A stretch of DNA of 64,000 nucleotides from Ditylenchus dipsaci. Taxonomy: Eukaryota > Nematoda > Chromadorea > Rhabditida > Anguinidae. Below are positions 250 to 59,247 of this stretch, one piece after another (within the stretch, counting starts at the first letter, position 1; each line of letters opens with the position of its first letter). A program made the translations under genes and the position numbers. The notes beneath the pieces are model-generated. The model was given only the letters and a program-made list of their open reading frames with translations. It was not told the DNA's origin and searched no databases. Location: assembly GCA_004194705.1 (NCBI GenBank), contig SADC01000312.1, forward strand, positions 124,001 to 188,000, read 5' to 3'.

Positions 250-694
250 CATACTTGCACGTTTCGGAAAATAGGGCGCCGCAAGCAGTGCCTGCGCCGG
301 GGCGCCAGGGTGAAATTAGGGCGCCATCGCCGGCGCCAGGCTATTTTGAAACATCGGCACCAGGCGCCATGCTAGAATAAGGGCGCCGGCTCCGGCGCCG
401 GTATTCTTGTCTGTAAAATTTTTTTATAACGAAAAAATGTATATTTTTATCTCAAAAATACTCAATTTCAAAGAAAATTCAAGAAAATTAGGAAATTTTT
501 AAAAAGGTTTTCCAAACATTTTTTAAAAATTTTGGAAAAAACAGCCTTGCTGCGAACATTGTGACATATTCGGCGGCTCTTTAAAAATCTCGGGCGCCGG
601 CGCTAGCTGTGAAAAACATAAGGGCGCCGGCGCCGGGCTTGTGATAAATTGGCACCGGCGCTGACCTTAGGCGCCTGGCGCCCTTGCAAGTATG
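250..694. mobile_element. hAT-like foldback element with GGCGCC arrays, copy A
   Basis: The ends are CATACTTGCAC and the matching GCAAGTATG, flanked by near-identical 8-bp direct repeats TCTGGGAG (242-249) and GCTGGGAG (695-702). Both subterminal regions are packed with the hexamer GGCGCC, itself a palindrome, while the centre is AT-rich. The element is 445 bp, no coding sequence is visible, and its sibling at 10657-11099 is 443 bp. The 8-bp TSD suggests a hAT-type non-autonomous element. Confidence 0.75.
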
Positions 695-811
695 GCTGGG
701 AGTATAGTAGAATCGATTGCTGGGGTATAGTACAGATTAGCCAAGCGCCCATGCGCTCCTGTTAGAGAAAATACGATATTTCATGTAAAAACAAAATGCC
801 GAAAAAAAATT

Positions 812-1102
812 CGGCGCTACTGTAATATATCCCCTCCCTCCCAAAAAACCCTCATGTAATAAACCCCCCCCCCCCCCGAAAATTTTCAGGCTTAGGAATT
901 AGGCTTAGAAATTAGGCTTAGGAATTAGGCTAAGCCCTTAGGCTTAGCCATTAGGCTCAGGGACAACACGTAACAATTTCACCACTTTTCAAAAAAAAAG
1001 TATGGCTTAAGGGTACCTGAAAAATTATTGGGGGGGGGGGGGGTGGTGTGTATATTACAGTAGCTTTTTTAGGGTGGACGGGGTATATGACAGTAGCGTC
1101 AA
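812..1102. repeat. MITE with CGCTACTGT-type inverted ends
   Basis: Left GGCGCTACTGTAATATA and right TATGACAGTAGCGTC are inverse. Inside lie a poly-C run, a degenerate ATTAGGCTTAGGA tandem (about 890-960) and a poly-G run, also in mirror order. A single end of the same family occurs at 52180-52230, and a related pair surrounds 47880-48300. Confidence 0.6.
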
Positions 1103-1729
1103 AAATTCTTTATTCATTCAATCAACCCTATCTTTCAACAAAAAATTACTGCCCAGCAACATAATAGTGTCTTTTATAGTTAGTAAAAATAAAAAGCCCT
1201 ACCTCGGAGCATGAGCCCCTTTAATGTAGCTTCAAAGGCCGCGCCCGGCCAATCCTGATTGAGAGACCAAAATATTCAAATAAGATGAAACAAAGTAAAA
1301 GCAGCTAATTTTTGTAATGAGACAACTAAATTTTTGAAGAAAAAGTCTCGAAAGTTGGTGGTGTACACTAAAGAGAGTGTGTTTTATTGAGTCGCGACCG
1401 GCTTCAAGTGTACACTAATGGGAGAGTTAACTATATATAACTTATATATATACACTATGATCATAAGTTTGTATGCTGTTGACTGCATTGTTTGAAAAAC
1501 TTTAATTCGGTGCACTCTCGATTCAGTGTATATTATTCTGGCCCGACGACTGACACTAAACTGAAAGTAAATCGATTTTACTGAATCGATTTTTCAAAAA
1601 AAAGTATTATTTTTCATTGCTCGCATTGGAAAACCCCTTTTTAGCATAAATAAATAAACCGATCTATTAATGCTGGTCACGCAAATACTTCACTGAGTGC
1701 TTATTGCTTAACAATCACGGCTTTCATTG
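1103..1729. other. Non-coding stretch with degraded repeats
   Basis: No gene is recognisable. Around 1340-1570 are degenerate pieces of the GTGTACACTAA / CTCTCGATTCAGTGTA repeat that recurs near 9545-9615 and 55000-55195, so this is an old pogo-like remnant. The rest is unassigned AT-rich DNA upstream of the peptide gene. Confidence 0.4.
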
Positions 1730-1737
1730 TATAAAAA
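1730..1737 (+). promoter_or_regulatory. TATA-box-like element of the secreted peptide gene
   Basis: TATAAAAA lies 71 bp before the ATG at 1801. That spacing allows a transcription start near 1760 and a short 5' leader. It is the only good TATA match just upstream of a supported start codon here. Confidence 0.45.
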
Positions 1738-1800
1738 GTGAAAAAATTTCATGGTCTTTAGAATATATCACTTTTTCTAAAATACGATAACATCAACAAA

Positions 1801-10656: not shown

Positions 10657-11099
10657 CATACCTGCACGGGCGCCGGCTAAAAAATCTTAACAGTCGGGCG
10701 CCGGCGCCGGCGCCTGAATGTTAAGATTTCAGCTGTCTTGACAATGTTTTAGTAACAATGTTTTAGTAATTCAAAATTTTCTCAGATTTTTTTGCAGACA
10801 AGTTATTTTTAATCTTATAGTAAATTTTTATTTTTTATGTTTATCACATGTAAATCACAAAATTTCATCACCGGTTTTTGCTTTTTTTTTTGATGACATA
10901 AAATGTTAGATTACTCTTTGTTACATTCTATTATTTTATTTACGAAAATGGCTTGATGCCGGCGCCTGGCGCCGTATTTCCTCTTTTAGGCGTCGGCGCC
11001 GACGCCCGGCGCCGAATTAATTGTGGCGCCGGCGCCGATTTTTAGTAGACCCGGCGCCTGGGTCGGCCCGGCGCCGATTTTTCTCAGCGTGCAGGTATG
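10657..11099. mobile_element. hAT-like foldback element with GGCGCC arrays, copy B
   Basis: The ends CATACCTGCAC and GTGCAGGTATG are inverse, and the flanks are a perfect 8-bp duplication CATACAAC (10649-10656, 11100-11107). Subterminal arrays of GGCGCC/GGCGCCGGCGCC occur at both ends, with an AT-rich centre. At 443 bp it is almost the same length as copy A (250-694). Confidence 0.88.
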
Positions 11100-15189: not shown

Positions 15190-15723
15190 GGCTTATACTG
15201 ATTTGGTTTGCGAAAAAGCTGAAATAGGTCACGAAAAAGATTATTTATCTCACGAAAAACCAAAATTAACATTAAATTAGCATTTTTTCTAAATTTTCGT
15301 GTTAATTTTTCGAAATCTTTTTAATAGCTTGTAGCCCAGAATCTCAGCTTTCTAACAAGCTATCAACCAATGTTTTCAAAAGTCATAGGCATAGTTTCAA
15401 AGTCATAGTCATAGGCATAATTTCAAAGTCATAGGCATAATTACAGTCAAAATTCTAGTCAAACTATGCCTATGACTTTTGAAAACACTGCTATCAATTT
15501 TCGGAAAAATTTACTCTATTCAAAGAACTTTTCCTCCAACTTTTTGAAACATCATTTGGTCAGTTGATAGCTTGTTAGAAAGCTGAGATCCTGGGCTACA
15601 CAATATTAGAAAAGTTAACAAAAAGTTATAAAAAAAACTTAGAAATATTTAAGTTTTTCGTGAAATAAATAATCTTTTTCGTGACCTATTTTAGCTTTTT
15701 CGCAAACCAAATCATATTATGCC
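15190..15723. mobile_element. MULE-like element with CACGAAAAAG repeats, small copy
   Basis: The ends GGCTTATACTGATTTGG and CCAAATCATATTATGCC are inverse, flanked by a perfect 9-bp duplication ATTTTGAGA (15181-15189, 15724-15732). Subterminal units TCACGAAAAAG(CTGAAATA) repeat in mirror image. The interior holds a second palindrome (AGCCCAGAATCTCAGCTTTC) also found at 60470-60680, and copies of GTCATAGGCATA. It is 534 bp and the same family as 29624-32653. Confidence 0.85.
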
Positions 15724-18220: not shown

Positions 18221-18652
18221 GGCTGTAAGTGAATTTCCGCACCAAAATTGTGAAATTCCGCACCAAATTTTTTATTTCATTGTCTGTGCTGTTTATTGTG
18301 TATAAAAAGTTGAGCATTGTCTCTTTTTTCCTTCATGGAAGGCAGTTCTAGGCAGTTCTAGGCAGTTCTAGGCAGTTCTCCCCAAAAACCATCTTTCAAG
18401 GGCTTGTGACCATTCCGGGTTGGGATTCTAAGCAATCCAAGTAATTTTCAGACTAAAAAATTTGAATTCTTGCAAAATTTGGTTCGTCTTGGACAGAAAA
18501 AGGCATAAATAATTTTTTTAAAAATTTGGTGCGGAATTTCACAATTTTGGTGCGGAAATTCACTATTTTTAGAACGAATTCGAATTTGGTGCGGAATTTA
18601 ATTAATTTGGTGCGGAATTTCACACTTTTGGTGCGGAAATTCAATGTGATCC
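18221..18652. mobile_element. MULE-like element with GGTGCGGAATTTCAC repeats
   Basis: Left GGCTGTAAGTGAATTTCCGC and right GCGGAAATTCAATGTGATCC are inverse, flanked by a perfect 9-bp duplication TTAAATTAA (18212-18220, 18653-18661). Both ends repeat AATTTGGTGCGGAATTTCAC in mirror image. The interior shares sequence with 32390-32520 (TTGGACAGAAAAAGGCATAA) in the other MULE-like family. It lies in the CNG intron after the pore exon. Confidence 0.87.
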
Positions 18653-18782: not shown

Positions 18783-20049
18783 CAGTGTTGTGAAAATGTA
18801 AATTTTGGCACCGGCACCGCACCGGCACCGGTGATTGTTGTCGGCACCGGCACCGGTGCCGCACCGGGCCTCAAATGCGACACCGGCACCGGTGCCGGCA
18901 CCTGGCTGAACATTTGCACCGGCACCGGTGCCTATCACATTCAGTACATTTTTGAGGAAAAAAGTTCATTTTTTAACGGGAATGAGTTATGTTGTTTCAA
19001 AAAAGTCTGGCTTATACAGAAATATGAATTTATTGAAATTGAGCACCCCACGACGCTTTACGAGCAGTTGTCCAGAACGGCCTTTATGCCTTATTGTATT
19101 TATTGTGACCCCTGAGAAGAGTCTTTCATCGCTAGCTGACGTGGCAAGAGTTGGCAAGGTCACGAGTGAGATTTGTGATAGCTTCGGGAACAACTAAATC
19201 AATTTATATTTTCAGTTGTTTGTTAAATCAGCTCACTTCCTTAGTTGCTTTCCGTAGTCAAAAGCATTGCTTTTAATTGACCCTTTCTAAACTGTTTCAA
19301 TGTATTGTTTCATTTCTTCATTCAATGGGTCTGAAACGTGTTTCTCAGCCTGAGATTTTTCAAATTCGAAAAAGCAAAAGAAAACAAATCCGTGGCACCA
19401 TTAATATAGTATTTATATGATAAAAATTGATTTATGATCAATTATTACATCGAACTATACCATTCCTTAACAAAAGCATCCAATTCTGGCTCAATACTCT
19501 TTCGCTTCAATCGTTTCTTCGATTTGTTGTAAAAATGAATATGTGGTTTTACTGGGCTTATATACATAGGGATATTCCTACTGAGTATATATATTTCATC
19601 GAATCAGAGTCCAATTATTGGACATGGTTCAATGTTTTTTGAATTTTAGCTAATACTTTATACTAATTTTTCATCTGTATGATAGCTCAAATGAAAGCCC
19701 AGAACCTTGGCTACATTTTGAAACTAAATTTGTAAATAAAAGGAGATAAAAAATAGGGTCTGCAGCCAGTGGTAGTCGAACCTGTGACCTAGGGTAATGC
19801 ATAAATGAAGTTCCCCCCCTTTACTCGAACAAAAAGTGGCATCTAAGCTTCAAGTTTTGCTGAAAATAGAAAAAATATTCGAATTTTAGGTAAAAATAGG
19901 CAGCGGTGCCAGCGAAAAAATCGGCACCGGCACCGGTGCGGCACCGGTGCCGGTGCTTTTTCGTTAAAATTTGGCACCGGCACCAGCACCGGTGCCAGCA
20001 AAAACTTGGCACCGGCACCGGTGCCCGCACCGGTGCTTTTACATCACTG
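18783..20049. mobile_element. hAT element inserted in the CNG S6 exon
   Basis: The ends CAGTGTTGTGAAAA and TTTTACATCACTG are typical hAT termini. The flanks are a perfect 8-bp duplication TTCATAAC (18775-18782, 20050-20057), which falls within the codons for LHN of the CNG S6 exon. Subterminal GGCACCGGCACC/GGTGCC arrays lie at both ends. A minus-strand transposase fragment is present (18987-19193), and a SINE-like or MITE piece at 19680-19815. Confidence 0.9.
18987..19193 (-). pseudogene. hAT transposase C-terminal dimerisation fragment
   Basis: The minus-strand frame holds LPTLATSASDERLFSGVTI followed by INTIRHKGRSGQLL and LNFNKFIF. This matches the pattern of the hAT C-terminal dimerisation domain (SA-S-ER-FS, then R-S-L, then a hydrophobic end). 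Only this part of a transposase is visible in the 1.27-kb element, so the copy is non-autonomous. Confidence 0.6.
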
Positions 20050-20245: not shown

Positions 20246-20263
20246 CAGTCAAACCGTTGCTAC

Positions 20264-20405
20264 TCATTTGCGCCCAACTCATTTGCGCCCACTCATTTGC
20301 GCCCACTCATTTGCGCGCAACTCGTTTGCGCCCACCTCGTTTGCGCCCAACTCGTTTGCGCCCACTCATTTGCGCCCACTCATTTGCGCCCACTCATTTG
20401 CGCCC
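20264..20405 (+). repeat. Left terminal minisatellite of the MULE
   Basis: Tandem units of CTCATTTGCGCCCA, with variants CTCGTTTGCGCCCA and CTCATTTGCGCGCAA, in the same order as the inverse array at 25339-25481. No unique spacers separate the units. Confidence 0.9.
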
Positions 20406-20511
20406 GCTTCATTGTTTTTCAAAATTTTGAATTCGTGGTTTTGATTTTTTTTTGATTTTCACCACTCGTCTGTATTTTCCTCACCTTGTATTATTGTGTT
20501 TAGTTTTGTCG

Positions 20512-23489
20512 ATGGCTTTCAATGTGGATAATGTCTGGCTAGCTAATGTGCTTGCTCAAACTCAGAAAACACTTCAAACAGCTAACCAGGTATGATAATT
20601 TGTTAAGCTTCATATTTTCACTATACCCTCTAATCTTTACTCTTTTTAGGGTGTTTTGTCGCTATCAAACAAAAGAGAGCAATGCCTAATCGTCAACAGC
20701 TACGAATACAGAAAGGGCCGCGTCATCAATTCGGGAACGGTTCAGAAGTGGAGATGCATAAACCGTGCGTGTAATGGAACTGCAAAAACAAGCTTCGGCT
20801 CTCTGGAAAATTTGCTCCTTCTCAATCCACATGTTTGCAGACAAAGTCCTAATGCTTTTGTGGTATTTTTTGTTCCCTTTTTACTGCAGTAATTTCAAAT
20901 TAATAGCGACGTGATGTCATAGCCAAAATCAAATCAGCTGCGATTGCTAACTTTGGATCTTACTCAACAGGAATAGTCGCTTCCGGGAAAAATGGGCTAA
21001 CAGATAACCAGTTGCTGTCTCTTCCAACCAATAAAGCATTGCAAGACCGCATGTTGCGAAAAAGAAACCAGTGGGGACAAGCAGTGTCGACAAGCCTGTC
21101 AGTGAGATTGAATGGTTGGAATGGCTGGGGGAAACTTGCCAAAAACGAAATTTGCCAAATACGAAATTTGCCAAAACGAAATTTGCCAAAACGAAATTTG
21201 CCAAATCGAAATGCGCCAAAACGAAATATGCCAAAACGAAATTTGCCGAAACGAAATTTGGCCAACGAACCAACAGGGGGGACCAAGGCAGTTTTTACGT
21301 TTTTTTCGAAATTTTCGAAACTGTGTCCTAACCACCTAAAACCCCCAAACAACCAAAATCACCTAAAACAGCAAAAACCACCCAAAATTACACTAAACAA
21401 CTCAAAACACCCCAAACCACCCGAAACCATCCGAAACTAAACTAAACAAAAATTTTGCGGGAATTTGAATTTTTAGTCTGAACCAACCAAACCAAGTGGT
21501 CGTCGACTTGGATCGAAATTTTTTTTTACGTTTTTGGATTCCAAATCCTATTTTCTGGACTTATTCGTGGACGCTGAACATGGTTTGACAGTGGTAAAAT
21601 GCCGTTTTCTCAGTTATTTTTGAGTTTTGGCAAATAATTGATTTTACCAAAATCAATTATTCCCCAAAACTCAAAAATTTCTTCATAAAACGTGATTTTA
21701 CCACTGTCAAACCATGTTCAGCGTCCACGAATAAGTCCAGAAAATAGGATTTGGAATCCAAAAACGTAAAAAAATTTTCGATCCAAGTGGACGACCACTC
21801 GGTTTGGTTGGTTCAGACTAAAAATTCAAATTCCCGCAAAATTTTTGTTTAGTTTAGTTTCGGATGGTTTCGGGTGGTTTGGGTGTTTTGAGTTGTTTAG
21901 TGTAATTTTGGGTGGTTTTTGCTGTTTTAGGTGGTTTTTGGTTGTTTGGGGTGGTTTTAGGTGGTTAGGACACAGTTTCGAAAATTTTGAAAAATACGTA
22001 AAAACTGCCTTGGTCCCCCTGTTGGTTCGTTGGCCAAATTTCGTTTCGGCAAATTTCGTTTTGGCATATTTCGTTTTGGCGCATTTCGATTTGGCAAATT
22101 TCGTTTTGGCAAATTTCGTTTTGGCAAATTTCGTTTTGGCAAAACATACGTTTGGCAAATTTCGTTTTTGGCAAGTTTCCCCTAGCCGTTGGAATACTTC
22201 ACGCAAACTAAAAACGGTGACAGGTTTTTGCTGCATGACTCTAGGTAAAATCTTTATTGATCGCTTTTCTTGATTTTAAAATTCTAGAGCGACTGAAGCA
22301 CGAATGCCCCCAATATTTATTTTCCTGTCTTCGTCTGGTCTTCGTCTGCTGCGGGAGAACTACCGTTGGGCTCTTGATGGGACCTTTTTCTGCGCACCAA
22401 AGCATTTGTCCAGCTTTACACTATCAACGTGTTTTTTGGGGAAACAACGCTGCCTTGCGTATACGCTTTGCTACCGGACAAGTCTGCTGCCACATATGTG
22501 CGAATGTTTCAAGTTTTGAAAAATCTCGATCTTCAGCCACAATCAATCATGATCGGTAATTTTCCGTATGGTATCATTCACGTATAAATCCTTGTTGTGA
22601 TTAAGATTTCGAATTCGCTGTCATTAACGCATTAGAGGAGGTTTTCGAAGATTTCGCAGCAAGTTTCTGCTTGTTTCATTTGTCTAAGAACGCATTTGCC
22701 AATGTTCAGGCAAGAATTTGAATAAAGAGCATGTTTTCATTACTGAAATCTCATTGTTTTCAGTCAAAGCACCTTCGCGCCGCCTATGACGATACTAATG
22801 CTCGTGAACTGTTACGGTGTCTACCATCCTTGGCATTTCTTCCAGAACAAGATGTTGCTCGTTGCTTTGATGAAATTAAAGAAGCCTTGCAGACTACGCC
22901 CGTGTTTCAGGAACTGAACCTTGAAAACAATTTACAAGGTAATTACCTAGAATTTCGAATTGTCTATTTATTGGTGTTTTAAGACTATTTGCACTACTTT
23001 GAGAAGACCTACATACGCCGTCGTGTCCGTGGGTTTCCAGCTGATGGCCTATTTCCGATACAGCTGTGGAATTGTCATGCTGCCGCAATTAATGGATTAC
23101 CAAGAACCAACAATCACGTTGAGGGATGGCACAAGGGATTCAACGAACGCTTCCAAAAGTCCAATATGAATTTGAGCCAATTCATTGTTCGTCTGAAGCC
23201 GAACAAGAAAAGACACGTCAACTGGTTGTTCGGTATATTCGCTTTTGCTTTGGTTATCAGGTTCTGAATTAATAATTTATTGTTCAGAGCTAGAGTGAAT
23301 CCAGCAGAAGCTCTTCGTCAGCCTCGCCGACCAGAATATGAAATGCGGGAGGCCAACATAAAGCTTTTGGTGCGCAATTATCAGTGGGATCAACGAATGA
23401 ATTTTTTGAGAGCCATACAGCATCACCTTGTCAAGCTTCCATTTACGCGGCAGGAAGAAGAAGAGAACCATGAGGACGAAGATCTCTAA
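20512..23489 (+). pseudogene. MULE transposase with FLYWCH zinc finger, decayed
   Basis: Exons include 20512-20589, 20650-about 20866 and about 20907-21122. Coding resumes at 22196 after the foldback and continues in pieces to 23489. The N-terminal part is a FLYWCH-type zinc finger (EYRKGR, then WRCINRACNG, then NPHVC). The middle has the MULE DDE-type start YRWALDGTF and later SIMI/DFEFAVINALEEVF. The C-terminal part has the family's LWNCHAAAINGLPRTNNHVE and GWHKGFNERFQKSN. The end is acidic. Such enzymes cut and paste their own element using the terminal repeats. Breaks: a 1,065-bp foldback in an exon, a frame change near 21070 and a likely one-base deletion near 22401. It is therefore not functional as read. 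Confidence 0.82.
21123..22187. mobile_element. Foldback element inside the MULE transposase
   Basis: The ends GGCTGGGGGAAACTTGCC and GGCAAGTTTCCCCTAGCC are inverse with one mismatch, and the flanks are a perfect 8-bp duplication GTTGGAAT (21115-21122, 22188-22195). The whole element is a near-palindrome of about 530-bp arms. Each arm begins with ATTTGCCAAAACGAA units (15 bp), then a block of AAACCACCC-type motifs, then a core shared with 43410-43690 (GGTTTGACAGTGGTAAAAT). It makes the long ORFs seen on both strands, none of which is a gene. Confidence 0.92.
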
Positions 23490-23881
23490 ATTGATGTTAT
23501 TTTTCTGTTAGCGTTATTGAGTTCTTTTGCTTTTGAAATAAAAGTCTGTTATTTGTGGGAAAAAAATTCAGCTTGAACTTTTTTAAATTCAGGTCGATAA
23601 GTATTAAACTCAAGAAGACCGCGACGGTCATACTTCCTATCAGAGGGGCAAAGATCAGATCAGATCAGTTCAGATCAGATCAGATCAGTTCAGATCAGAT
23701 CAGATCGCCGAAGATCAGATCAGATCAGATCAGATCAAGATCAGATCAGATCAGATCAGATCGGCATAATATTTTTTTTCTTTAATTTAGTCAAATTTCA
23801 CACTCTAAGTCAAAATTTTACGGCGAAACGTATTTTATACAAAGTTGAAAGAAGATCAGATCTATTTAGATCAGATCAGTT

Positions 23882-23985
23882 CAGATCGGGTCAGATCGGG
23901 TCAGATCGGGTCAGATCGGGTCAGATCGGGTCAGATCGGGTCAGATCGGGTCAGATCGGGTCAGATCGGGTCAGATCGGGTCACA
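23882..23985 (+). repeat. Tandem repeat (TCAGATCGGG)n
   Basis: About ten head-to-tail, almost perfect copies of a 10-bp unit, inside the left arm of the 23641-25182 element. The right arm has no equally long array, so this expansion looks recent and one-sided. Confidence 0.9.
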
Positions 23986-24139
23986 TCGGCTGAGATCGGC
24001 TTACATTTTTTTCTTTAATTTTGTCAAATTTCACACTTTGAGTCAAAGTTTTACGGCGAAACGTATTTTACAGTCAAAAAGAAAGGTTTATTGTGTTTTT
24101 AACTATATATTTAATTACAACTTTTGTCGGTAGATTTTT

Positions 24140-24430
24140 TTCGGCTGGAAAACTTTTCATTCGGACACTGGATTCGTGTTCAGCATGGTCTTCATAAAGT
24201 AAAGCTTCTTTTGAAATTTCAGAGTCACTGTCAAATTTTGAATTTCGTTCAAGATAATTAACATTTGAATTTAAAATTTCAATCTTAATTGTCTTGAGCG
24301 GAAATCAAAATTTGACGGGGACTCTGAAATTTTGAAAGAAGTTTTATAAGCAAATCGACCACGCTGAACACGAATGCAGTGTCAGAATCAAAAGTTTTCC
24401 CAGCGGAAAAAAAGTTATAAAAATTTGTGT
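24140..24430. repeat. Palindrome within the AGATC element
   Basis: GACACTGGATTCGTGTTCAGCATGG...TCAGAGTCACTGTCAAATTTTG is mirrored on the right. The shared theme (a disrupted GTGTTCAGCATGGTC next to CAAATTTTGA) also occurs in the palindromes at 34463-34932 and 61978-62222, pointing to one family. Confidence 0.6.
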
Positions 24431-25837
24431 CACAACTTATATATTCATTTTGCACATTTTGTCATAACTTGACAATGAACTATAGTTGCATTCAAAGCCA
24501 AAATGACAGTGACATTCTGCTCTTTGTTTTTGTTTTGATTATTCAGCTATATTTTATCTCTGCACAAAGTTTTTTGCTTGTAAAAAGTAAGAATGGAGCG
24601 TTTTGAAAATCGCTACTCCAATAAACAAGTGGTGATTTATCTTAAACCTTCAAATCGAAAGAGTCAATGGTTAGTATTTTCAAAAAGCTAAATTCCTGGC
24701 GGTCATTTTGGTATATTATGAGCGTGGGTGTAGTATGACCATCATGGCGCATTAATTGAAAACCTGTAGGTACCCAGCTGGATTTTGACCCTGCACAATG
24801 TGTTACCTCCCGGACCCTTTTACACCTACTTCATCAATGATTGTAGCAAAAAGGAGCCCCGCCATCGTGTTCACCGGGAAATTCTGCACAGTAATCAACA
24901 ACCGATCTGAACTGATCTGAACTGATCTGAACTGATCTGATCTAAATCGATCTGATCTTTTCCCAACTCTGTGTAAAATACGTTTCGCCGTAAAATTTTG
25001 ACTTAAAGTGTCAAATTTGACAAAATTAAAGAAAAAAAATATTATGCCGATCTGATCTGATCTGATCTGATCTTGATCTGATCTGATCTGATCTTCGGCG
25101 ATCTGATCTGATCTGAACTGATCTGATCTGATCTGATCTGAACTGATCTGATCTGAACTGATCTGATCTTTGCCCACCTCTGCTTCCTATTCACCAGAAT
25201 TTCTAAAATTCTTTATTCTTGATCTTTCTCATCTCAATAAAAAATTAATATTCTCAATAAAGCAACCAGAAAATTATTATAGTCCACTATCTGTTTTTCA
25301 TGATATAATATGTTAAATGGAGGCGGGCACTCATGAATTGCGCGCAAATGAGTGGGCGCAAATGAGTGGGCGCAAATGAGTGGGCGCAAACGAGTTGGGC
25401 GCAAACGAGGTGGGCGCAAACGAGTTGCGCGCAAATGAGTGGGCGCAAATGAGTGGGCGCAAATGAGTTGGGCGCAAATGAGTACGAACCAGTCAAACCT
25501 CCCAATAACGAACCCCAAAAGTTCGTTCCCGCCTAGGGTCCGACACTTTTTTTACCTCGATTTTTTAAATTTTTCTATTTCTGTTTTCAAAGTATGACTG
25601 CAAATATCGTCAGGATTACGATTTTGCCAATATTTTTAGCGAAAGAAAAAACTTTTGACCTTAAAAAAGCAAAACCTCCTATTAACGGAACCGTATTTTC
25701 GAAAAATCTTACGTTAATGGGAGGTTTTGTTTTTTTAAGGGCAAAAGTTTTTTCTTTCACTAAAAAAATCTGCAAAGTCGTAATCCTGACGATATTTGCA
25801 GCCAGACTTTAAAAAAAGCAATAGAAATTTTGCCGCT

Positions 25838-28690: not shown

Positions 28691-28694
28691 TACT

Positions 28695-29614: not shown

Positions 29615-30127
29615 AAAACAAAAGGCTCATACTGATTTGGTTTGCGAAAAGGCTGAAATATGCCACGAAAAAGATTATTTCTGCCACGAAAAACGACATA
29701 CCACGAAAAAGCGGATATAAGCCACGAAAAAGCTGAAATATACCATGAAAAAGCTGAAATGTGCCACGAAAAAAATTATTTATGCCTTTTTCTGTCCAAG
29801 ACCGACCAAATTTTGCAATATTTTGCAAGAATTCAAATTTTTTAATCATGAAATAACTTGGACCCTCAGAATCCCACCCCGGAATGGCCAGAAGCCCCTG
29901 AAAGTTGTTTTTTTGGGGGTTTACCATAGTACGCAAAACCTATAAAATGACAATTTTCTGACAATTTTTCTGGCGTTTTGAACATATAAAATTTACTTGT
30001 AAATTTTATAGGTATTTTTATAGGTTTTTTATAGGTGTTTTATAGGTTTTTGTAGGTTTCGTTATTTCATTGTATCTTCACTGTTTTACTTATAATTTTA
30101 CATCTAAAGTCACGTTATATCGTAGTT

Positions 30128-31888
30128 ATGTTAAGGATTTATCCATTCATGATGAGTGATATTGGCGAGCAGGGAGAATTGAGCAGGACGAACAGCTATG
30201 AAGAGGGCGAAAACTATGTAAAAGATAGACGCTCTAACGTAACTATCCATGCTTTTCTTTATATTTATTGATTTTTCTCTTTTTTCGGTCCAATTTGATC
30301 CTAGTAAACATCATAGTGGGGCGCCCGTCCGACGAAGACGGGCCGCGGCCGTCCCCGTCCGGACGGTCTAGCAATTGGGTTAGCAAATATGGACGGTCTT
30401 CTTTCTAGAACATAAACTAACATGTTCTAATGCCAAAAGCACAGCGACCGTCCATGCCCGTCCACCTTTTTCAATCGACCGGCCGCCACCGTCCTAAAAA
30501 TTGTCGTTTTTTCGAAAAAACATTTATTTCGGACGGTGGCTGTGGGTCGACTACCAAAACGGACGGACAAGGACGGTCGGTCTGTTTTTCGCATAAGAAC
30601 AAGGTAGCTCATGTCTTAAAAAGTACCGTTCAGACTTGATTGGCCAACTGTTAGACTGTCCGGACGGGACGGGCCCGGAGGACAGGTGCCCACTATGGTA
30701 AACATACCAGTAAACCGTGGACAAGAAGCAAGAAATACGGTTATTTATTTGATCTCCTTTTCGAAAATGGCAAGAACACAGATTGGGTAATTTGCATGCG
30801 ATGCTGTGAAACTCTCACTAAAGCGGGTGTTACTTCTTTGAAGTAGACTTTTTCAATATAGGCTGCAATATAAATCTTCACACTTTCATTTAGGTATCAC
30901 GCAGACAATCACAATGATGTAAGACCGCTGTCTGACGCTAGTCTTGCAGAAGCATTGCAAAAGTTTGTTGTGTGTTCTTGTCAACTATTCAGCGTCCTTT
31001 CAGACAAACCTTTTGTGTCCTTCCCCGATGACTTTCAAAAGTTAACGAAAGTCCTAATCTAAGTTATCACTATTACAACGGAATTTAGAATTCAAAACTA
31101 TGTCATTAGCCACACAATACCGGCTCGGAATCTGTTGCCGTCATCCAATACAATGAGCAGGCGAATTACTTATTCCATAGATACAGCCAAAATACAGTTG
31201 CTGGACCAGATAGCTATGCTTAAGCAGAATGGTGGTGGTATAACCTTAGATTTTGCAAAGAAAGGTGTGGACTACTTGGCCGTCACAGCACATATATAGA
31301 TCACAATTGGTATTAAATTTCCTATAATTGTTCCATATTTGCACTATTAGGGAATTAAATGACTTTGTCCTCCCTTTAACTCTACTGCTAGTAGGCTTCC
31401 ACAAGACTTCTAGAAATGTTCGCAATGTTAGCATCAAAGAAAATGTTCGCAGCAAACCAAGCAGGTGAAGGTAATTCCGCCTACTCAGTTGCAGTGGCTC
31501 AGACTGCTATGGAACGCTTCACTAGGGGAAATAGGATATTTATCCACCCAGGACTGGCTTTTCACACCATCATGTTCAATCAATAAAAAGTTGGCTGTTT
31601 TCGGTGCATTTTTTGATCCTTTCACCCATTCACAGCTTAAGGACATCTGCAGTAAAGTGCCTGGATTTAAGTAAGGTACCACTACAAAAGGCTTTATGAT
31701 GTTATTTTATTATGTTCTCGCTCCTCGCTCCCTTGGTTCCTTTAATTTTAGCCATGCAAGTGAATAGTTCTGCCAGTGAACGGGCATTCAAAGAGCTTCG
31801 GTCAAGTATCAACGATTACACAAGAAACAAACTGGAACCAAAGAGCATAGCAAACCTGATTATGTTAAGAAAAATGATTAACGATTAG
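30128..31888 (+). pseudogene. hAT transposase (BED finger, dimerisation domain), broken
   Basis: After the nested insertion, 30706-30841 reads YLFDLLFENGKNTDWVICMR with two further cysteines, like a BED-type zinc finger. The stretch 31085-31300 holds ARNLLPSSNTMSRRITYSID and LDFAKKGVDYLAVTAH, as in the RNase H-like core of hAT enzymes. The part 31752-31888 holds VNSSASERAFKELRSSINDY and TRNKLEPKSIANLIMLRKMI, the C-terminal dimerisation domain. Coding is spread over several exons or frames and cut by a 386-bp insertion, so a functional product is unlikely. The ATG at 30128 is only a possible start. Confidence 0.75.
30312..30697. mobile_element. hAT-like MITE with GGACGG repeats
   Basis: CATAGTGGGGCGCCCGTCC and GGACAGGTGCCCACTATG are inverse ends, flanked by a perfect 8-bp duplication GTAAACAT (30304-30311, 30698-30705). 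GGACGG / CCGTCC units cluster towards both ends. It interrupts the transposase of the 29925-32171 hAT. A related GGACGG-rich element is at 36359-37268. Confidence 0.9.
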
Positions 31889-32186
31889 TTCATCGTTGTT
31901 CATCGTAGTGAAGATTTGTTGATTAAATTTCTATAACTTAGGACATCACACAATGCACTGTTATCACTGTCAGCCGATAAAAGGGTTAAGAAACGAGAAA
32001 AAAATGGAGTAAAACAGAGAAAATATAATGAAGCAACGAAACCTACAAAAACCTATAAAACACCTATAAAAACCTATAAAAATACCTATAAAATTTACAA
32101 GTAAATTTATATGTTCAAAACGCCAGAAAAATTGTCAGAAAATTGTCATTTTATAGGTTTTGCGTACTATGGGGTTTACTAAAGGG

Positions 32187-32380
32187 GAGTAAACTTTTTG
32201 CGAAAATTCGATTGAGCGGATCAGAATCCCGGTCCGATCAACTGAATCACTCAGAATTCCACCCTGAACCACTCAAAACCACCATAAACCTGGAATTCTG
32301 AGTGATTCAGTCGATCGGACCGGGATTCTGATCCGCTCAATCGAATTTTCGCAAAAAGTTCACTCCCCCTTTAGTAACCC
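32187..32380. repeat. Near-perfect palindrome
   Basis: AAAGGGGGAGT-type ends, then TTTTTGCGAAAATTCGATTG and CGGATCAGAATCCCGGTCCG, are mirrored around 32280 (CACTCAAAACCACC). It is the centre of the larger CACGAAAAAG element. Confidence 0.8.
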
Positions 32381-32851
32381 CCAAAAAACCAACTTTCAGG
32401 AGCTTCTGGCCATTCTGGGGTGGGATTCTGAGGGGTCCAAGTTATTTCATAATTAAAAAATTTGAATTCTTGCAAAATATTGCAAAATTTGGTTGGTCTT
32501 GGACAGAAAAAGGCATAAATATTTTTTTTCGTGGTACATTTCAGCTTTTTCGTGGCAGATTTCCGCTTTTTCGTGGTATGTCGTTTTTCGTGGCAGAAAT
32601 AATCTTTTTCGTGGCATATTTCAGCCTTTTCGCAAACCAAATCAGTTTATGCCAAAACAAAAATGGTCAAAAATCCTAAGTAACATGTATCCCCCCTGTG
32701 AAAAAGACCGTAGCCGTGGACGGCTATGGTCTTTCAAAGTCAAATCTATCACGACCACCATTCCAAAGGACCGACCTTCAGGGTGGCGATTTAAAGAGAT
32801 TTGACTGTCAAAAAAATATATTTAATGATTTAACTAATTTTCAATTTGAAG

Positions 32852-48591: not shown

Positions 48592-50324
48592 GGCCCGTAT
48601 TAATAAAGATTACCCTTACCTCTACCTTTTACCCTTACCTCTAACTTTTACTCTTACCTGTAGCTTTTACCCCTACCTCTACCTTTTTTTACTTTAACTT
48701 TTACCCTTACCTCTACCCTTACCCTTACCACTACTTTTACCCTACCTCTACCCTTACCTATACCTTCAATTTTTACCCCTACCTTTACCTCTACCTTCTA
48801 CCATTACCTGTAACTTTTACCATTACCTTAACCTTTTACCCATAGCTGTATTCTACCTTCAATTTTTACAAATACATGCAAATACAACTTGAAGAAATCG
48901 ACTGCATCCAATTGCTCCAGAGGATTGTGCAACACCTTGTAGACCTTCGTTCGTCGACCGACATTCATAAACATCGCCATTTGAGCTGAACTAGAGTAAA
49001 TCAACACGAAGTAACAGACGTTCCACATGTATGCCCGATGTATACCCCATGTATACCCGACAAGACAAGCTACAGTATCGCCGACAAAATACAGAAGAAA
49101 CTTTATTCGACTATTAACAATAACAACGCCTACGCAGTAACCAACAACCATGCATCAGCCTGACAAATTTTTATACTCCTTTTCTTTCTTTCCTCGTGCT
49201 GTGGGCCGAAATGGCGCAGAGAGTCGCAGCCACTTGGTCCAAGACCGATGAGAACTTGTTGTTGATGGCAATCTGGCCAAGAAGCGCTTCCCTCTGCAAT
49301 TCTTCCAAACTTGGCTCCTTCTTCTGACGCTTGACAACGGGCGAGGAAAATGACGTAGTCGGACGCTTGGCAGGAGATGGAGTATTGACACAATCCTGAA
49401 ACAAAATAAATAAATGCATAAAAGGAAAAACCATGACGGAAATCATACCGAACCGAGCAAAGACGTTTCGATACCCGAAGACAATCCCTCAAAGCTCGGA
49501 CTCCCATCATAAAGAACTTGGACTTGCTCGAACAGTTGCTGCTTCTGCATTGGGGCACCTCCACCAGTCTTCGACGCGCTCCTGAATGGGAAAAAAGGGT
49601 CAATGGGACTTTCTCAAATCATAAATAAAACTAAGGCTCACTTCTTTTGATCCTGGAGGTCCTGCTTTGCCAACTTCTTCAAATTCGAGTGCTTCTGCTT
49701 GACCTGCTCCACACTGTGCGCCCTTTGATCCGGATATTCAGTATTGAGGATGTCGGCGACAAGCTTCCACGCATTGCTTTGACCAGCGGCTGAGTCCTTC
49801 TTGCGGCTGTTCGGGAAGAGATCTTCTTGATTTTCGGACACCAGCTCCACGAGACGTTTGCACATATCCGGTGTGAACATTGCGAAAACTAAACAAAAAC
49901 AACGATAGAGTGAGAGAAAAAGCACAGTCTTAAAGTAGCGAGCAAAACTCAACAATCCGCACAACAATGAAACGCACAACAATGAAAAACGGAAGTTAAA
50001 TTCGTGTTCAGCGAACTAAAATTGCTTTAGAAATGCTTTACGGGACAATATTTTGAAAATTGAGATGAAGGTAAAAATTTTACCATGCAGTAGCATGGTA
50101 AAAATTTCATGGTAAAAATATGCCTTGGTCCCCCTGTTGTTTTTTACCCTTACCTCTACCTCTACCTTTACCTCTAGCTTTTATTAATACGGGTAGAGGT
50201 GAGGGTAGAGGTAAGGGTAAAAGGTAGAGGTAGCGGTAGGGGTAAAAATTCTTTATTAATACGGGTAGAGGTAAGGGTAGAGGTAAGGTAAAAGGTAAGG
50301 GTAAATCGATTATTAATACGGGCC
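48592..50324. mobile_element. Harbinger-like element with TACCCTTACCTC-repeat ends
   Basis: GGCCCGTATTAATAAAG and TTATTAATACGGGCC are inverse ends, with CAG on both sides (48589-48591, 50325-50327) as a 3-bp target duplication. The left end is about 230 bp of TACCCTTACCTCTACC-type repeat. The right end has the inverse GGTAGAGGTAAGGGTA over about 170 bp. It encodes a Myb/SANT protein (49171-49880). No DDE transposase was recognised, so the copy is non-autonomous or decayed. Confidence 0.8.
49171..49880 (-). CDS. Myb/SANT-like DNA-binding protein of a Harbinger-type element
   Basis: Exons 49642-49880, 49449-49581 and 49171-49395 (minus strand; introns 60 and 53 bp) join in phase to an intact 198-residue frame ending in TAA. 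Residues 1-80 form a Myb/SANT-like trihelix domain: MFTPDMCKRLVELVSENQED, NAWKLVADILNTEYPDQR and VEQVKQKHSNLKKLAKQDL. KTGGG follows just after, as in that family. The C-terminal half (SLEELQREALLGQIAINNKF, SSVLDQVAATLCAIS) is a predicted helix. PIF/Harbinger transposons carry such a protein next to the DDE nuclease to bring it to the ends. It lies inside the 48592-50324 element. A host-gene origin is less likely because the element boundaries enclose it. The frame is undamaged, so it may still be expressed. Confidence 0.75.
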
Positions 50325-52273: not shown

Positions 52274-53833
52274 TAGAGATGGGCATTTGCTTTTGCCCAA
52301 TACCAATATTTTTTGGCACACTCTAGACCCAGTACCAATATTTCAAAGTTGTGGACCCCAATATATTGCCCAATACCAATATTTTTTCAAAAGTCTATTG
52401 TTTCACCAAAACATTAAAAAAAGTTCCTTATTCAGTCTAATCTCGATTTAGTAACACACTGGAACTTATTTTTTGGCCTAAAGAAACGAAAATTGATCCG
52501 TTTCGGTTTTTTATTAGGGTCACAAAATCAAAATTAAAATGTGCTCGGAAATCGAATAACCGAGCAATTTTTAAATTCAAGTTTGTACGAATCAAATTTT
52601 GGACGATCTGAATTTCGGACTAATTGATGTTGAGCTAACTGATTTTTGGACGAAAATTAACGGCATTGCACGAGCTGTCGAATATGGAGAAATAATTTGG
52701 AATAAATCTTGTTATGGTGTTGCAGAATTGTGGAAAAGATAAATAAATTTTGTCAAAAAAAATCACTCCTCAGTCAGAACTTCTAACATTACCGTATTTC
52801 CTCTAATAGAAGCCCCCCACCTATTATAAGCCCCCCCCCCCCCCCCTCTAATATAAGTCCCCCCCCTAGAGGTCATCCAAAATATAAAAGCCCGGAAGAA
52901 GCGTCTCTTTGTAGTGGTTGGTTAGAGATGCGCGCACTCACTTACCCTAGAGATGAATCCGAGCAAGACTCTTGACTCTCGAATTTACTGTCGGGGAATT
53001 TACCTAGAGCCAATTCGAACACTTTTAATAGGCCATAACCTAGGCCATCCGGAGGCTATCCTCAGACATTCTGCAAAGTTTTACTCTGAATGATATTTTA
53101 GCTACACAGTGGTGTTAATTCTTTCAAAAACAAGTTTATATAACTTATGAGAAAGGGTGAAACGAATTTGCTGCAAAATTAAGATGATTTGCTGTGAAAT
53201 TCCAATACGCACAAAATAAATGCAGGAAGAACGCCTCCGAGAGAAACGGTGTTTATATGAAAAAGTGGTTTTGTTGTTTAAACGCTGTTTTAACAATATT
53301 ATGTGAAAAATTAGAAGCGATCATAGGATGGCGAAAAAATTATGACTCAAAATTTTTCTCCGCGCCTTCGGTGCGGCGTGTTCAAAAATAAAAAGCCCTC
53401 CTCTAATACAAACCTCCCTTCTAATATAAGAACCCCCCTTGAGGGCATCCATAAAATAGAAGCCCGGGGCTTCTATTAGAGGAAATACGGTGGTTATTAT
53501 AAACACCAAAAAAATTTGGGTATAAGAGAGTCTTTTCGTTGAGTTTATTCTTTAAAATAAGACAATTTAAGTGAATCAATGAAAAAATAATAAATAAAAT
53601 TTGTTAAATGTCATCCATTAGGCCACAAAATGCGGAAATATGAGTAAAAATTTGAAATTTCTATTGGAAAAATTTCGTTATTTTTTAAAAATTTCGTCAC
53701 CCAATATCTTTATCAAATCCAATACCAATATTTTTGAAAGACACCAACCAATATCCCAATACCAATATTAACGCCTTTATTTGACTCAATACCCCAATAT
53801 ACCAATACCAATATATTGTTTTTCCCATCTCTA
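52274..53833. mobile_element. hAT-like element with CCAATACCAATATT repeats
   Basis: TAGAGATGGGCA and CCCATCTCTA are typical hAT ends, flanked by a perfect 8-bp duplication GTGCACAG (52266-52273, 53834-53841). Both ends repeat CCCAATACCAATATTTT in the same direct orientation. It contains the mariner-like MITE at 52792-53490. No transposase was found. Confidence 0.88.
52792..53490. mobile_element. TACCGTATT-type MITE nested in the hAT
   Basis: CCGTATTTCCTCTAATAGAAGC is mirrored by GCTTCTATTAGAGGAAATACGG. The flanks are TA on the left and TG on the right, so the target duplication is only partly kept. Inner AATATAAGCCCCCC units repeat near each end, and a half copy of the GTAAGT hairpin repeat lies at 52915-52990. 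Confidence 0.75.
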
Positions 53834-56204: not shown

Positions 56205-57087
56205 GTGAATAAAGAAGTATTTTTTTATTTGCAAATTCAATCTGAAGTACACGTATTACTGCAAGTGCTTTCCACATTATGTAAAATAGCTGTTATCGCA
56301 GTCAGCACTGAATATTTAGACATTACAGGCTTGAGACTAGAAAATATTTTGTGCGATGTGTGTTTTTCGCTAGTATGCTAATAGAAACGTGTAATTAGAG
56401 CACAAAGTATGCTTTGTACTGTTTTGTTAACAAAGTGTTCGTATAAAACAAGTTCATCAACACATTAGAGAAGTCAGTTACACAAAAAATTTCTGTAGTA
56501 AAAGCTTTTATTTGTTAAATGATTGCAATGAAATATTTTTGTCAAATTAAGAAACGTACCCAGTTTTTTGCATTTATTCTAATAAAGTAAAACTCTTTTT
56601 TTTTAAATCTTGTTTTGGCGTTTTGTTTTCGACCCACTTTTTAGAGATTAATATTTTTTAATTTGTTACTCATCTTTCTGGCCAATAATTGAAACATAGC
56701 TTGCTTAAAAACGGTCTTCTAAGAAGAATTTGAACAAACAGGATGCCGCTTTATTTGAATGCAGGGGTGTCGGTCTCTTTTATGCGGGAAATAAATTTTT
56801 CATCATTCCTCCGCCATTTTTAATGCTAGTCATAAGATGATTGAATTTTCTGAAATTGCCTTACTTTTTCTTTAATGATTTTCTTTAAACGACCCTAGTA
56901 TCGAATCGTTAACAACTATTGTTGATCCAACAATTGCTTTTTAACAGAACTTTCACTTATCTCGTGGCTAGCATTCTAAAAATAAAATTATATCTTTAGC
57001 TGAAGACTGTATCAGTATCTTTTTTGGTATATGACAGTAGCGTCGATTTTTCTTAAAACACCCTAGTGTCGAATTTTCTAACAACTG
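56205..57087. other. Intergenic, nothing recognised
   Basis: AT-rich single-copy-looking DNA. The reading frame at 56196-56381 starts inside the preceding MITE and has no supporting signals. Confidence 0.4.
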
Positions 57088-57447
57088 CAGGGTGTCCCAA
57101 ATATTTTGGAACTTTCTTTTGGCCATAACTTTTCTCTAGTGCGATTTTTGAAATTCTGTAAACGCAGATCGATTCAGAATTTTATAAGAATTTTTGTAGT
57201 ATATAACTTGAAAACACAATTTTTGCTTGGTCCCCCTGTAGTTTGGGCCTTACCGATCCAGAAGCAACCCAGAGACAAGGACCCAAACCGCAAGGGGACC
57301 AAGCAAAAATCGTGTTTTTCAAGTTATATACCAAAAAAATTATTATGAAATTCTGAATCGATCTGCGTTCACAGAATTTCAAAAATCGCACTAGAGAAAA
57401 AGTTATGGCCAAAAGAAAAGTTCCAAAATATTTGGGACACCCTGTAT
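57088..57447. mobile_element. Palindromic element with CAGGGTGTCCCAAA ends
   Basis: CAGGGTGTCCCAAATATTTT is mirrored by AAAATATTTGGGACACCCTG over arms of about 155 bp. The inner parts meet at TTGCTTGGTCCCCCTG and its inverse. The ends resemble mariner-type CAGGGTGTCCCAAAA tips. A TG or TA lies outside. Confidence 0.8.
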
Positions 57448-57599
57448 TGATGAATAAACAAACCCATTCGAACAAAGTTTTACTATCTCATCATTAGCAT
57501 TCTGAAAAAGAACAAAAGTTATATGGTTAGCTAAATTTCTAAACAAAAAAGGCACAAAAAGCCTGTAAATACGGTAACTTAATAAAAAAAAAAGTGGCC

Positions 57600-58190
57600 T
57601 GGTGACCGATGAGGGCTAACAAGTACGGATCTCAATTCGCAGATTGTTTTATCATCAATTCGACATTTGCAAATATAACCCCTGCAGATGCGAAATATGC
57701 AGTTTGAAATTTGCGACTTTACATTTTCATTACGACATTGCCGATGCGACACTAACATTTGTAACATTTTGCAGCTTCAAATTTGTGTATTGTGATTTAC
57801 AGACTATACATTTGAAAAAGTTGTTTTCACATGTTGACATTTACAGATACGACAATTGCAGACGTGACACTTGCATACCGACATTAGTAGACGCGACTTT
57901 TGCAGACCCACATCACATAGCGACATTGGCAGCTCCACATTCGCAGATTCGACATTTGCAGACCCACATTTGCAGACGCGACATTTGCATACTTATATAT
58001 GTTGCAGTAACGAGAAACTTATTATTTTTTCATGGAGATAGCAAAAGCATGTCAAAAAATAGATGTAACTGTCTTCCTTCCCGTTAAAAAACCAATCTCG
58101 GTCTGCAAATGTCGCGTCTGCGGATGTGGATCTGCAAAATTCGGTCTGCAAAAGTCGGTCTGCGAATGTCGCATATGTAAAAATGGGTTT
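57600..58190. repeat. Degenerate GACATTTGCAGAC tandem with inverse arm
   Basis: Units like CGACATTTGCAGACC(CA) repeat from about 57640 to 57990. The inverse, TCTGCAAATGTCGCG, repeats at 58095-58180. The open frame at 57644-58087 is only this repeat. The MULE-like element at 58237 begins 46 bp after it. Confidence 0.75.
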
Positions 58191-58236
58191 GAAATTTGGT
58201 TCTGAAAATGCTGCTTCCTCAAATGAATAGTCTGTC

Positions 58237-59247
58237 GGGTCGCCCTGTTTCCCTCAAAGGACGTTTCCCCTCAAGGCCGTTCCCCTCAAAGGACGTTTCC
58301 CTCAAAGGACGTTTCCCCTCAAGGCCGTTTCCCCTCAAAGGACGTTTCCCCTCAAGGCCGTTTCCCTCAAAGGCCGTTTCCCCTCAAAGGCCGTTTCCCC
58401 TCAAAGGCCGTTTCCCTCAAAGGACGTTTCCCCTCAAGGCCGTTTCCCCTCAAGGCCGTTTCCCCTCAAAGGCCGTTTCCCCTCAAAGGCCGTTTCCCCT
58501 CAAAGGCCGTTTCCCCTCAAAGGACGTTTCCCTCAAAGGACGTTTCCCTCAAAGGACGTTTCCCCTCAAAGTTCCCCTGAAAGGCCGTTTCCCCTCAAAG
58601 AACGTTTCCCTCGAAGCTCCCTCAGATTCTTCTCCTTCTACCTGCCTGCCTTCGGCAGGCAACCTAATTCAATAGGAAGCCCCTTTAGGGGTACATGGTC
58701 TGGGATAAGGGCTGACCCTTTGGGGGTACATGGTCCGGGATAAGGGCCAACTCTTTATATACGAGCTCTATATTAGCATCCATCAGATTGCTAAATTTTC
58801 ATATTTAAAGTAAATATCGATTTTCAAAAAAAACACAGAAAAATGAATAAATACAAAATCGGACTTAAAAAAATGAACAGATACAGGCGGTGAAATGACC
58901 CGGCGGTGAAATGATACAGGCGGTGAAATGACCCGGCGGTGAAATGATACAGGCGGTGAAATGAGCTGGCGGTGAAAATGCGTGTTAACGGTAAAATCCA
59001 CGAATATCCTCCAAAACGTTTCTGATGATGTTCATGGCTGTCGATTGCTAGCGCACCTGAACAAAAAATATTAATAAAAACGAGAGTGCAAAAGCAGAGC
59101 GCAAAAAAGAAGAGCGAAAAAATTGACGCGCCACTTGCGCCACTCCAGATCGGTAACTCGAAGAAAATTGCAAAAAAAATTGAGGGGAACTTTGAGGGGA
59201 AACGTCCTTTGAGGGGAAACGTCCTTTGAGGGAAATGGGCGTGTCCC
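58237..59247. mobile_element. MULE-like element with CTCAAAGGACGTTTCCC repeats
   Basis: Left GGGTCGCCCTGTTTCCCTCA and right TGAGGGAAATGGGCGTGTCCC are inverse ends. The flanks are a perfect 9-bp duplication TAGTCTGTC (58228-58236, 59248-59256). The left array spans about 370 bp of CCTCAAAGGACGTTTCC / CCTCAAGGCCGTTTCC units; the right array has only about three inverse units. The interior has an AATGA-C-GGCGGTG tandem (58885-58980). The 159-codon ORF at 58196-58675 is the array. Confidence 0.9.

Follow-up and report, generated by a model that had tools for sequence, protein, structure and literature searches.

Inverted arrays of family-specific tandem units at the ends of DNA transposons from at least three superfamilies in a 64-kb window

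The stretch of DNA analysed here (G000:C311:124001-188000, "the window" in the following) has a length of 64,000 bases and belongs to a genome of 227 Mb in 1359 contigs. Its GC content lies between 33 and 43% per 2-kb step and it holds a single open reading frame (ORF) of at least 200 amino acids (aa). The GC content, the scarcity of ORFs and the remnants of eukaryotic transposons fit a eukaryote. An Rfam scan of the window yielded no family at the gathering threshold. Fourteen transposable elements, one of them probable, have ends built from short repeated units (Table 1). Together, they cover 14,495 of the 64,000 bases, and several are nested. The starts of thirteen elements had been listed in an earlier reading of the DNA letters by themselves (the sequence-only reading). 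They represent eleven unit families, with one family shared by E2 and E6 and another by E7 and E15. E21 was absent from that list; it is the fourteenth element and adds a twelfth unit family.

Table 1. Array-ended elements of the window. Positions count from the first base of the window; TSD, target site duplication; TRF, Tandem Repeats Finder.
Element	Position	Strand	Assignment	Unit or array	TSD	Remarks
E2	250..694		hAT-type	GGCGCC clusters at both ends	TCTGGGAG/GCTGGGAG (7/8)	no TRF call
E6	10657..11099		hAT-type	GGCGCC clusters	CATACAAC	tip CATACCTGCACG; no TRF call
E7	15190..15723			CACGAAAAAG units	ATTTTGAGA (9 bp)	TRF array at right end only
E8	18221..18652			21-bp unit TTTGGTGCGGAATTTCACAAT	TTAAATTAA (9 bp)	TRF array at one end only
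E9	18783..20049		hAT-type	GGCACC arrays	TTCATAAC	tip CAGTG
E10	20256..25489	+	Phantom-like Mutator	14-bp unit CTCATTTGCGCCCA	CAGTCAAACC (10 bp)	
E11	21123..22187			15-bp unit ATTTGCCAAAACGAA	GTTGGAAT (8 bp)	nested in E10; GGCT tips
E12	23641..25182		hAT-type	AGATC arrays	CTTCCTAT	nested in E10; tip CAGAGG
E15	29624..32653		foldback element	21-bp unit CTTTTTCGTGGCACATTTCAG	AAAACAAAA (9 bp)	
E16	29925..32171	+	hAT	ACCTATAAAA arrays	GGGTTTAC	nested in E15; hAT dimerisation remnant
E17	30312..30697		hAT-type	GGACGG clusters	GTAAACAT	nested in E16; no TRF call
E19	48592..50324	-	NuwaI-like Harbinger	TACCCTTACCTC arrays	CAG	Myb/SANT reading on minus strand
E21	~57822-58187		probable element	unit GACATTTGCAGACGC at both ends	7/9 by eye	ends approximate
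E22	58237..59247			unit CTCAAAGGACGTTTCCC	TAGTCTGTC (9 bp)	

The sequence-only reading had described mirror-image arrays at both ends of these elements. They proved to be real, and each of the 13 positions noted was the start of an element; tips were placed by eye first and checked by script afterwards. The TSD was exact in 12 of the 13 elements (six are 8 bp long, four 9 bp and one 10 bp, and the remaining one is CAG), while E2 matched at 7/8 positions. TRF called an array at both ends of eight elements (E9, E10, E11, E12, E15, E16, E19 and E22), at one end only of two (E7 and E8) and at neither end of three (E2, E6 and E17). The latter have clusters of the hexamers GGCGCC or GGACGG rather than clean minisatellites. 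The 67 merged arrays of the window formed 15 alike pairs at distances of up to 6 kb, namely 12 inverted and 3 direct ones. Eight elements gave rise to the inverted pairs (four from E12 and two from E11), and two of the direct pairs are internal to E12, the third to E19. Under stricter settings, 52 arrays with 11 inverted and 2 direct pairs were obtained. Three first-order Markov randomised windows contained 2-3 arrays and zero pairs and therefore, the inverted pairs are not due to chance. The first unit begins 11-25 bp inside the tip in 12 of the 13 elements and ~80 bp inside it in E16. Long inverted ends built of tandem units, as met here, are a Foldback-type architecture. The mirror symmetry is true of orientation but not always of length, since the unit counts of the two ends can be very unequal, as in E22 with ~22 units on the left and 2.5 on the right (TRF). 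The arrays of E10 measure 152 bp each and are 98% identical.

The sorting of the elements into groups resembling hAT, Mutator-like elements (MULE) and Harbinger, as already suggested by the sequence-only reading, is supported by TSDs of 8 bp, of 9-10 bp and of three bases (CWG), the last together with a Myb/SANT match. At least three superfamilies are supported, namely hAT, a Phantom-like Mutator and a NuwaI-like relative of Harbinger. hAT elements have an 8-bp TSD. It was found at 8/8 positions in E6, E9, E12, E16 and E17 and at 7/8 in E2, and the tips of all six start with CA. The hAT dimerisation domain PF05699 scored 20.8 bits in E16, below the cut-off of 21.4, and 22.4 bits, above the cut-off, in a hAT nested in the locus L089, the array ends of which were seen by eye. 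E12 and E22, each searched in three frames of the plus strand, yielded no Pfam match, nor did one frame of 25490-29300.

The FLYWCH domain was matched in the E10 family with 24.0 bits in L091 (cut-off 23.6), 20.9 bits in L090 and 19.9 bits in the window copy. The MULE domain reached 19.7 bits in L091 against a cut-off of 27.6 and was not matched in L090. Searched with its joined frames, E10 had 23 homologous proteins at E<=1e-5 with 23-34% identity. All 23 contain MULE PF10551 and 13 also FLYWCH PF04500; the single named protein among them is from Gigantopelta. The TSD of E10 is identical at 10/10 positions and those of E7, E8, E15 and E22 at 9/9. Membership of these four elements in Mutator is assigned by TSD alone, no transposase being tied to them. 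E11 has an 8-bp TSD, a length also compatible with other superfamilies, and GGCT tips, and its copy L012 likewise shows an exact 8-bp TSD and GGCT tips. E10 is inserted into the end of another element at 25490-26751 that has CAGTCAAAACCTCCC tips and an apparent TA target site and that we take to be pogo-like; the TSD of E10 equals the first ten bases of this element.

A CWG TSD was present in 11/11 members of the E19 family, the window copy and ten fetched pairs. Myb_DNA-bind_5 was matched on the minus strand with 22.3 bits (cut-off 21.7) when stops were read through. The search for a DDE transposase covered three minus-strand frames of the window copy and gave no match. The limits of E19 were set after its flanks had been inspected; the notion that it has no TSD was rejected, as the CWG reading at the corrected limit settles the matter. 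CWG TSD and Myb/SANT reading fit NuwaI of PIF/Harbinger (PHIS; PMC4482050). No THAP match turned up in the Pfam scans, of which none was aimed at THAP.

Copies of the elements were then sought in the genome. All genome samples were chosen via ends or cores, and the search patterns of E12 and E16 themselves contain units. Tip plus two units of E12 occurred at 723 places with up to 3 mismatches (reversed control 0). At least 100 places were exact, and among those listed, 25 of the 26 neighbour pairs within 6 kb were facing. Twenty facing pairs were fetched, with an exact 8-bp TSD in 17, 7/8 in two and none in one. For E16, 75 places with 28 facing pairs, the one in the window included, and 2 non-facing pairs were found. 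Seventeen copies from the facing pairs were compared; the 8-bp TSD was exact in 16 of them, and two had an identical flank. Tip plus first unit of E6 gave 1114 places (up to 3 mismatches, reversed control 0), and no facing pair within 6 kb was seen by eye among the 100 places listed. The ends of its window copy diverge beyond the tip. The unit pattern of E22 recurred 142 times against a reversed control of 0; one array holds several of these places, e.g. that of the window copy with 10 listed. E19 yielded 78 places (reversed control 1) and, by eye, 13 facing pairs including that of the window (12 others); the motif was present at both ends in 10/10 fetched pairs. In the E10 search, 45 matches were listed and 40 of 365 candidates scored. 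A 23-base core motif common to the E15 and E8 families occurred at 330 places with up to 3 mismatches (reversed control 0).

For E8, the top loci out of 40 scored were taken; for E15 and E19, facing pairs were selected. Among the 30 best-scoring E8 loci, two of which (L055 and L056) have a common flank, at least two units stood on both sides of the core in 26, both tips were found in 23 and an exact TSD of 8-10 bp in 22. Both arms were complete in 16 of the 20 facing-pair loci of E15, one arm in 3 and none in 1; its TSD was exact at 9 bp in 10/15 and matched at 8 bp or more in 12/15. An absence of arrays from most copies, which the sequence-only reading had considered fatal to its proposal, was thus not found at these pre-selected loci (E8 26/30, E19 10/10, E15 16/20), for which the search patterns were free of units. 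One copy of E12, L089 (G000:C901:665830-670250), contained by eye at least three further nested pairs of mirror arrays (CTCACTC..., TACGACTCGATACA... and GACAATTGACCGCCTGG), one of them adjoining the hAT dimerisation match.

From this analysis, the arrays are probably convergent arrays of family-specific, putative transposase-binding units on cut-and-paste transposons of at least three superfamilies, in line with the first of the causes offered by the sequence-only reading. The sequence immediately internal to a short terminal tip would have turned into an array of family-specific units with opposite orientation at the two ends. Each unit would be a binding site for the family's own DNA-binding domain (BED-, FLYWCH- or Myb-type), and many units would raise affinity and specificity. 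The array would be copied from one end to the other, and the arms would stay alike via inheritance from matched parents and occasional conversion. The binding function is suggested by published relatives, and the likeness among superfamilies would be convergence and not one common machine. The sequence-only reading had taken the recurrence of this form in several superfamilies as a sign of a shared process. Its breadth within one window holds; a single common process is not supported, the two arms being alike in E15 and E16 but not detectably in E12.

Concerning the arms, unit order was compared with 1000 shuffles of one arm. The true arm-to-arm score was reached 0 times in E10, E11 and E15 and 13 times in E16. 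Given that the unit order agrees between the arms beyond shuffles, the array of one end is probably a whole copy of that at the other end in several families, and not a product of separate growth. The comparison of E15 arms comprised 21 elements (20 loci and the window copy), of which the 17 two-armed ones were used; L072, L073 and L086 with one arm and L088 without arms were left out. The arms differed by 5.2 events within a copy and 7.5 between copies, and 13 of 20,000 permutations were as low. Both arms of L077 lack a stretch of ~17 bp, and variants private to L074 or L082 occur in each of their two arms. The tips at the two ends were unlike in 15/17 E15 copies, and the ends of E10 also have different tips. 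The E15 arrays showed no left or right lineage, as 6.73 events were counted between copies for the same tip and 6.79 for different tips. For E16, 5.6 events within and 7.5 between copies were obtained (90 of 20,000 permutations; n=16) in a second test that omitted L156, the flank of which is the same as that of L154. A marker that splits the E16 copies was identical in both arms in 16/16. Within-copy likeness of the arms was observed in two of three tested families (E15 and E16, not E12); a likeness in all families was rejected, as it was undetected in E12.

Several results speak against the proposed explanation. No intact transposase or hAT gene was found in the examined copies, and the domain matches are weak (FLYWCH 19.9-24.0, MULE 19.7 and hAT dimerisation 20.8 bits). 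Unit order was not significant in E12 (145/1000 shuffles) or, for part of the arms, in E19 (92/1000). The arms of E12 showed no detectable co-variation (3.3 vs 3.8 events; 2421 of 20,000 permutations; n=16, the end-of-array marker being absent in the other 4 of 20 copies) and an arm length correlation of 0.02 (n=16). The unequal ends of E22 belong here as well. In E15, the permutation result weakened to 254 of 20,000 without L087 (8 without L081, L083 and L087), and only for 4 of 17 copies was the closest arm, ties included, the other arm of the same copy. Private substitution states of E15 were found 27 times in one arm and 9 times in both, 8 of the latter in the divergent L087. As these states are mostly one-armed and the E16 marker splits the copies, the likeness of the arms may mostly be subfamily history. 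Frequent, recent conversion between arms was rejected because the private changes of E15 lie mostly in one arm. Exchange between the arms thus happened, but mostly before the present copies spread, and recent conversion looks rare and not general.

The 9-10 bp-TSD elements related to E8 and E15, termed the clan here, show how the arrays themselves change. The ~115-bp core of E8 and E15 recurs beside other arrays, and six units were found beside related cores: TTTGGTGCGGAATTTCACAAT (E8), TTTTTCGTGGCACATTTCAGC (E15), TTTACTGCGGGAAATCAGTAA, TTTTGCGGTGAGAAAAAAGTA, TTTGCGGCAAAATTCCGACTT and AAATTAGGCGGAAAAAAAAGT. The further clan units were read from L053, L057 and L060, and 8 of the 86 places in the survey of clan cores fell into the class "other". 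Compared with the core of E8 or E15, those at units three to five show 74-88% identity. In the third and fifth, the alignment is confined to the first 96-98 of 116-128 positions and stops short of the array; at the sixth unit, it comprises just 45 positions with 78% identity. All six arrays have a period of 21 (TRF). Their units agree at 10-14 of 21 positions compared with a shuffled mean of ~10, and 6 of 15 unit pairs reach P<0.02. Judged from this, the units are probably distant relatives, and the view that they are unrelated was rejected. GCGG occurs in five units and CGTGG in that of E15. One end of the third family opens with the eight bases GGCTGTAA of E8, its other tip is similar, and core and 9-10 bp TSD are common to both. 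The TSD matched at 10/10 positions in L060 and at 8/9 in both the fourth (L053) and fifth family (L057). For the copy of the third family in L053, 10/10 was read by eye, while the scripted 9-bp test gave 4/9. The tips of the fourth and fifth families, GGATAATATTT (L053) and GGGCAAATCGG (L057), are unlike the others. The unit TTTGTCACAGATTCAC of L049 was rejected as a clan unit, because it seems to stem from an insertion nested within a copy of E8.

The array appears to alter faster than its surroundings, in both arms; both ends seem to receive a new array while the adjacent sequence stays. It is conceivable, and put forward only tentatively, that the array is a specificity cassette that can be remade. 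The clan would have kept its core and some tips and switched the unit at both ends together at least 4-5 times, with families arising thereby. The two-turn spacing and a GCGG-like centre would be retained while the 21-bp unit changes almost beyond recognition, and one end would act as template for the other when the whole recognition array switches. The rarity of recent conversion makes this weaker. Alternatively, the core could have been captured repeatedly by different array-ended families, with no array remade in the clan. The unlike tips in L053 and L057 would agree with such captures, as would the third and fifth core alignments that stop before the array and the variable interiors of Muta1 derivatives (PMC5225508). 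Repeated capture is nevertheless rather doubtful; the common period of 21, the 6 of 15 unit pairs alike above chance and the combination of GGCTGTAA, similar other tip, core and TSD shared by the third family and E8 all stand against it. How a transposase acquires a new specificity could be tested in this clan, where six different 21-bp units stand beside related cores; a joint change of the protein and of both DNA ends otherwise tends to escape observation.

For the arrays as a whole, a common host process such as replication slippage, repair or over-replication at ends might expand whatever adjoins the tips, leaving arrays without function in transposition. The recurrence of the form in three superfamilies within 64 kb would suit such a process, and so would the rapid change in array length (88 to 197 bp at 16 sampled right ends of E12) and the further nested mirror-array elements seen by eye in L089, a locus chosen for another reason. 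It is unlikely all the same, as other elements with inverted repeats, e.g. at 25490-26751 and 6986-7522, have no TRF array, each family holds its own unit, several show the same unit order at both ends and arrays stood at both ends in 10/10 E19 pairs (selected as facing). Short tandem arrays can be misassembled in unit number. That the arrays are artefacts of this kind is nevertheless extremely improbable for tracts of a few tens to ~360 bp that lie between matching TSDs at many sites and differ among copies. A further candidate for what binds the arrays, in place of the transposase, is a regulator of the element or host, e.g. an anti-silencing factor of the VANC type, in which case the change of units would reflect an arms race with silencing. 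This seems quite unlikely. VANC motifs in tandem repeats of Arabidopsis diverge together (PMC5735166), as seemingly do the clan units; however, they lie in noncoding regions generally, whereas the arrays described here start 11-25 bp inside the tips in 12/13 elements, and beyond the Myb reading of E19, no second element protein was seen in a limited search.

The sequence-only reading was aware of subterminal repeats in hAT and MULE elements, but not of this uniform, mirror-symmetric form across superfamilies. A lack of precedent is not supported, given that Muta1, Tm1 and Galileo are in print. Muta1, a FLYWCH-Mutator of Aedes aegypti, has a 145-bp terminal inverted repeat (TIR) composed of a 10-bp terminal motif and 9 copies of a 12-bp repeat, a TSD of 8-9 bp and derivatives varying in unit number; in this mosquito, 10 of 12 long-TIR Mutator families contain subterminal repeats of 9-15 bp (PMC5225508). 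It resembles the E10 type as a FLYWCH-Mutator with a TIR of tandem units, but represents one superfamily and has a palindromic tip. Tm1, a Mutator/Foldback (Phantom) element of root-knot nematodes, has a FLYWCH-MULE transposase, a 9-bp TSD, 14-bp units numbering 1-9 per TIR and unlike 7-bp motifs at its two ends (PMC3169594). This design is close to E10; yet, Tm1 is one family with an inner purine-rich motif and other unit sequences. The VANDAL Mutator elements of Arabidopsis have short family-specific motifs in tandem repeats that are bound by VANC proteins and units that diverge together (PMC5735166), but there the motif is bound by an anti-silencing protein.

Galileo/Foldback of Drosophila has long TIRs with a repetitive interior and more than one binding site (PMC3573991, PMC3688188), and its THAP domain binds several sites in the Galileo repeats (PMC3688188). 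Its authors proposed conversion or exchange between TIRs and regarded multiple binding sites as convergent across superfamilies (PMC3573991). Galileo differs in belonging to the P superfamily; the repeats of Galileo F measure ~210 bp, and their number at one end is independent of that at the other. Repeats are also found in the TIRs of the foldback element Tetris (PMC4079207). The hAT transposase of Herves binds a short subterminal motif that recurs at both ends, and subterminal motifs of Ac, Tol2 and Tag1 are cited in the same paper (PMC3143072). With a TIR of 11 bp and a small number of motifs, Herves contrasts with the long inverted arrays of E12 and E16. The NuwaI group is characterised by a CWG TSD and a Myb/SANT ORF and is found chiefly in animals; the main text of that paper does not contain the term "tandem repeats" (PMC4482050), and the E19 frames searched contained no DDE transposase. 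The Harbinger subfamily MtPH-A6-4 of Medicago has subterminal repeats in opposite orientation, but is a plant group with 60-bp units, and 5 of its 23 members are without the repeat (PMC2213677). Searches among open-licence papers, judged by title and the start of the abstract, listed none reporting the form across several superfamilies of one genome. The architecture is thus known and convergent, and the noteworthy part is its breadth in one window together with the apparent remaking of arrays in the clan. Many array-ended families stand side by side in one genome, several with tens to hundreds of copies, and this genome permits direct tests of array origin, likeness of the ends and change of recognition.

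Further repeats were noticed alongside these elements. The 19-mer CAACAGGGGGNCCAAGGCA occurred at 4075 places of the genome with up to 1 mismatch (reversed control 0); within the window, it lies next to E11 (near 22016) and inside E19 (near 50123). It neighbours many dissimilar sequences across the 30 loci read and lies inside elements with 8-bp TSD and GGCTC tips in L020 and L030, so that a rather short motif is widely retained. In L011, L014 and L034, a second common core (the 19-mer and GTTTTTTTACG...) is preceded by short palindromic units of three kinds (ACGTTTCTCCG..., ACGTTTCACCT... and ACGTTTGTACG...), which may be another instance of an array changing next to a retained core. The only ORF above 200 aa in the window is located on the minus strand at 13904-14683; it encodes 259 aa, is acidic by eye and has no Pfam match. 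Minisatellites of 18 bp, e.g. CTCTAATAGACGGGTC, or a related one of 27 bp are found at 2870-3024, 10258-10313, 34043-34094 and 52791-53491. Where ends could be read, they adjoin a terminus of the ACCGTATT type and form a repeat-ended group with no clear mirror array. A separate 16/33-bp minisatellite, GATACAGGCGGTGAAATGACCCGGCGGTGAAAT, lies inside E22 at 58880-58977.

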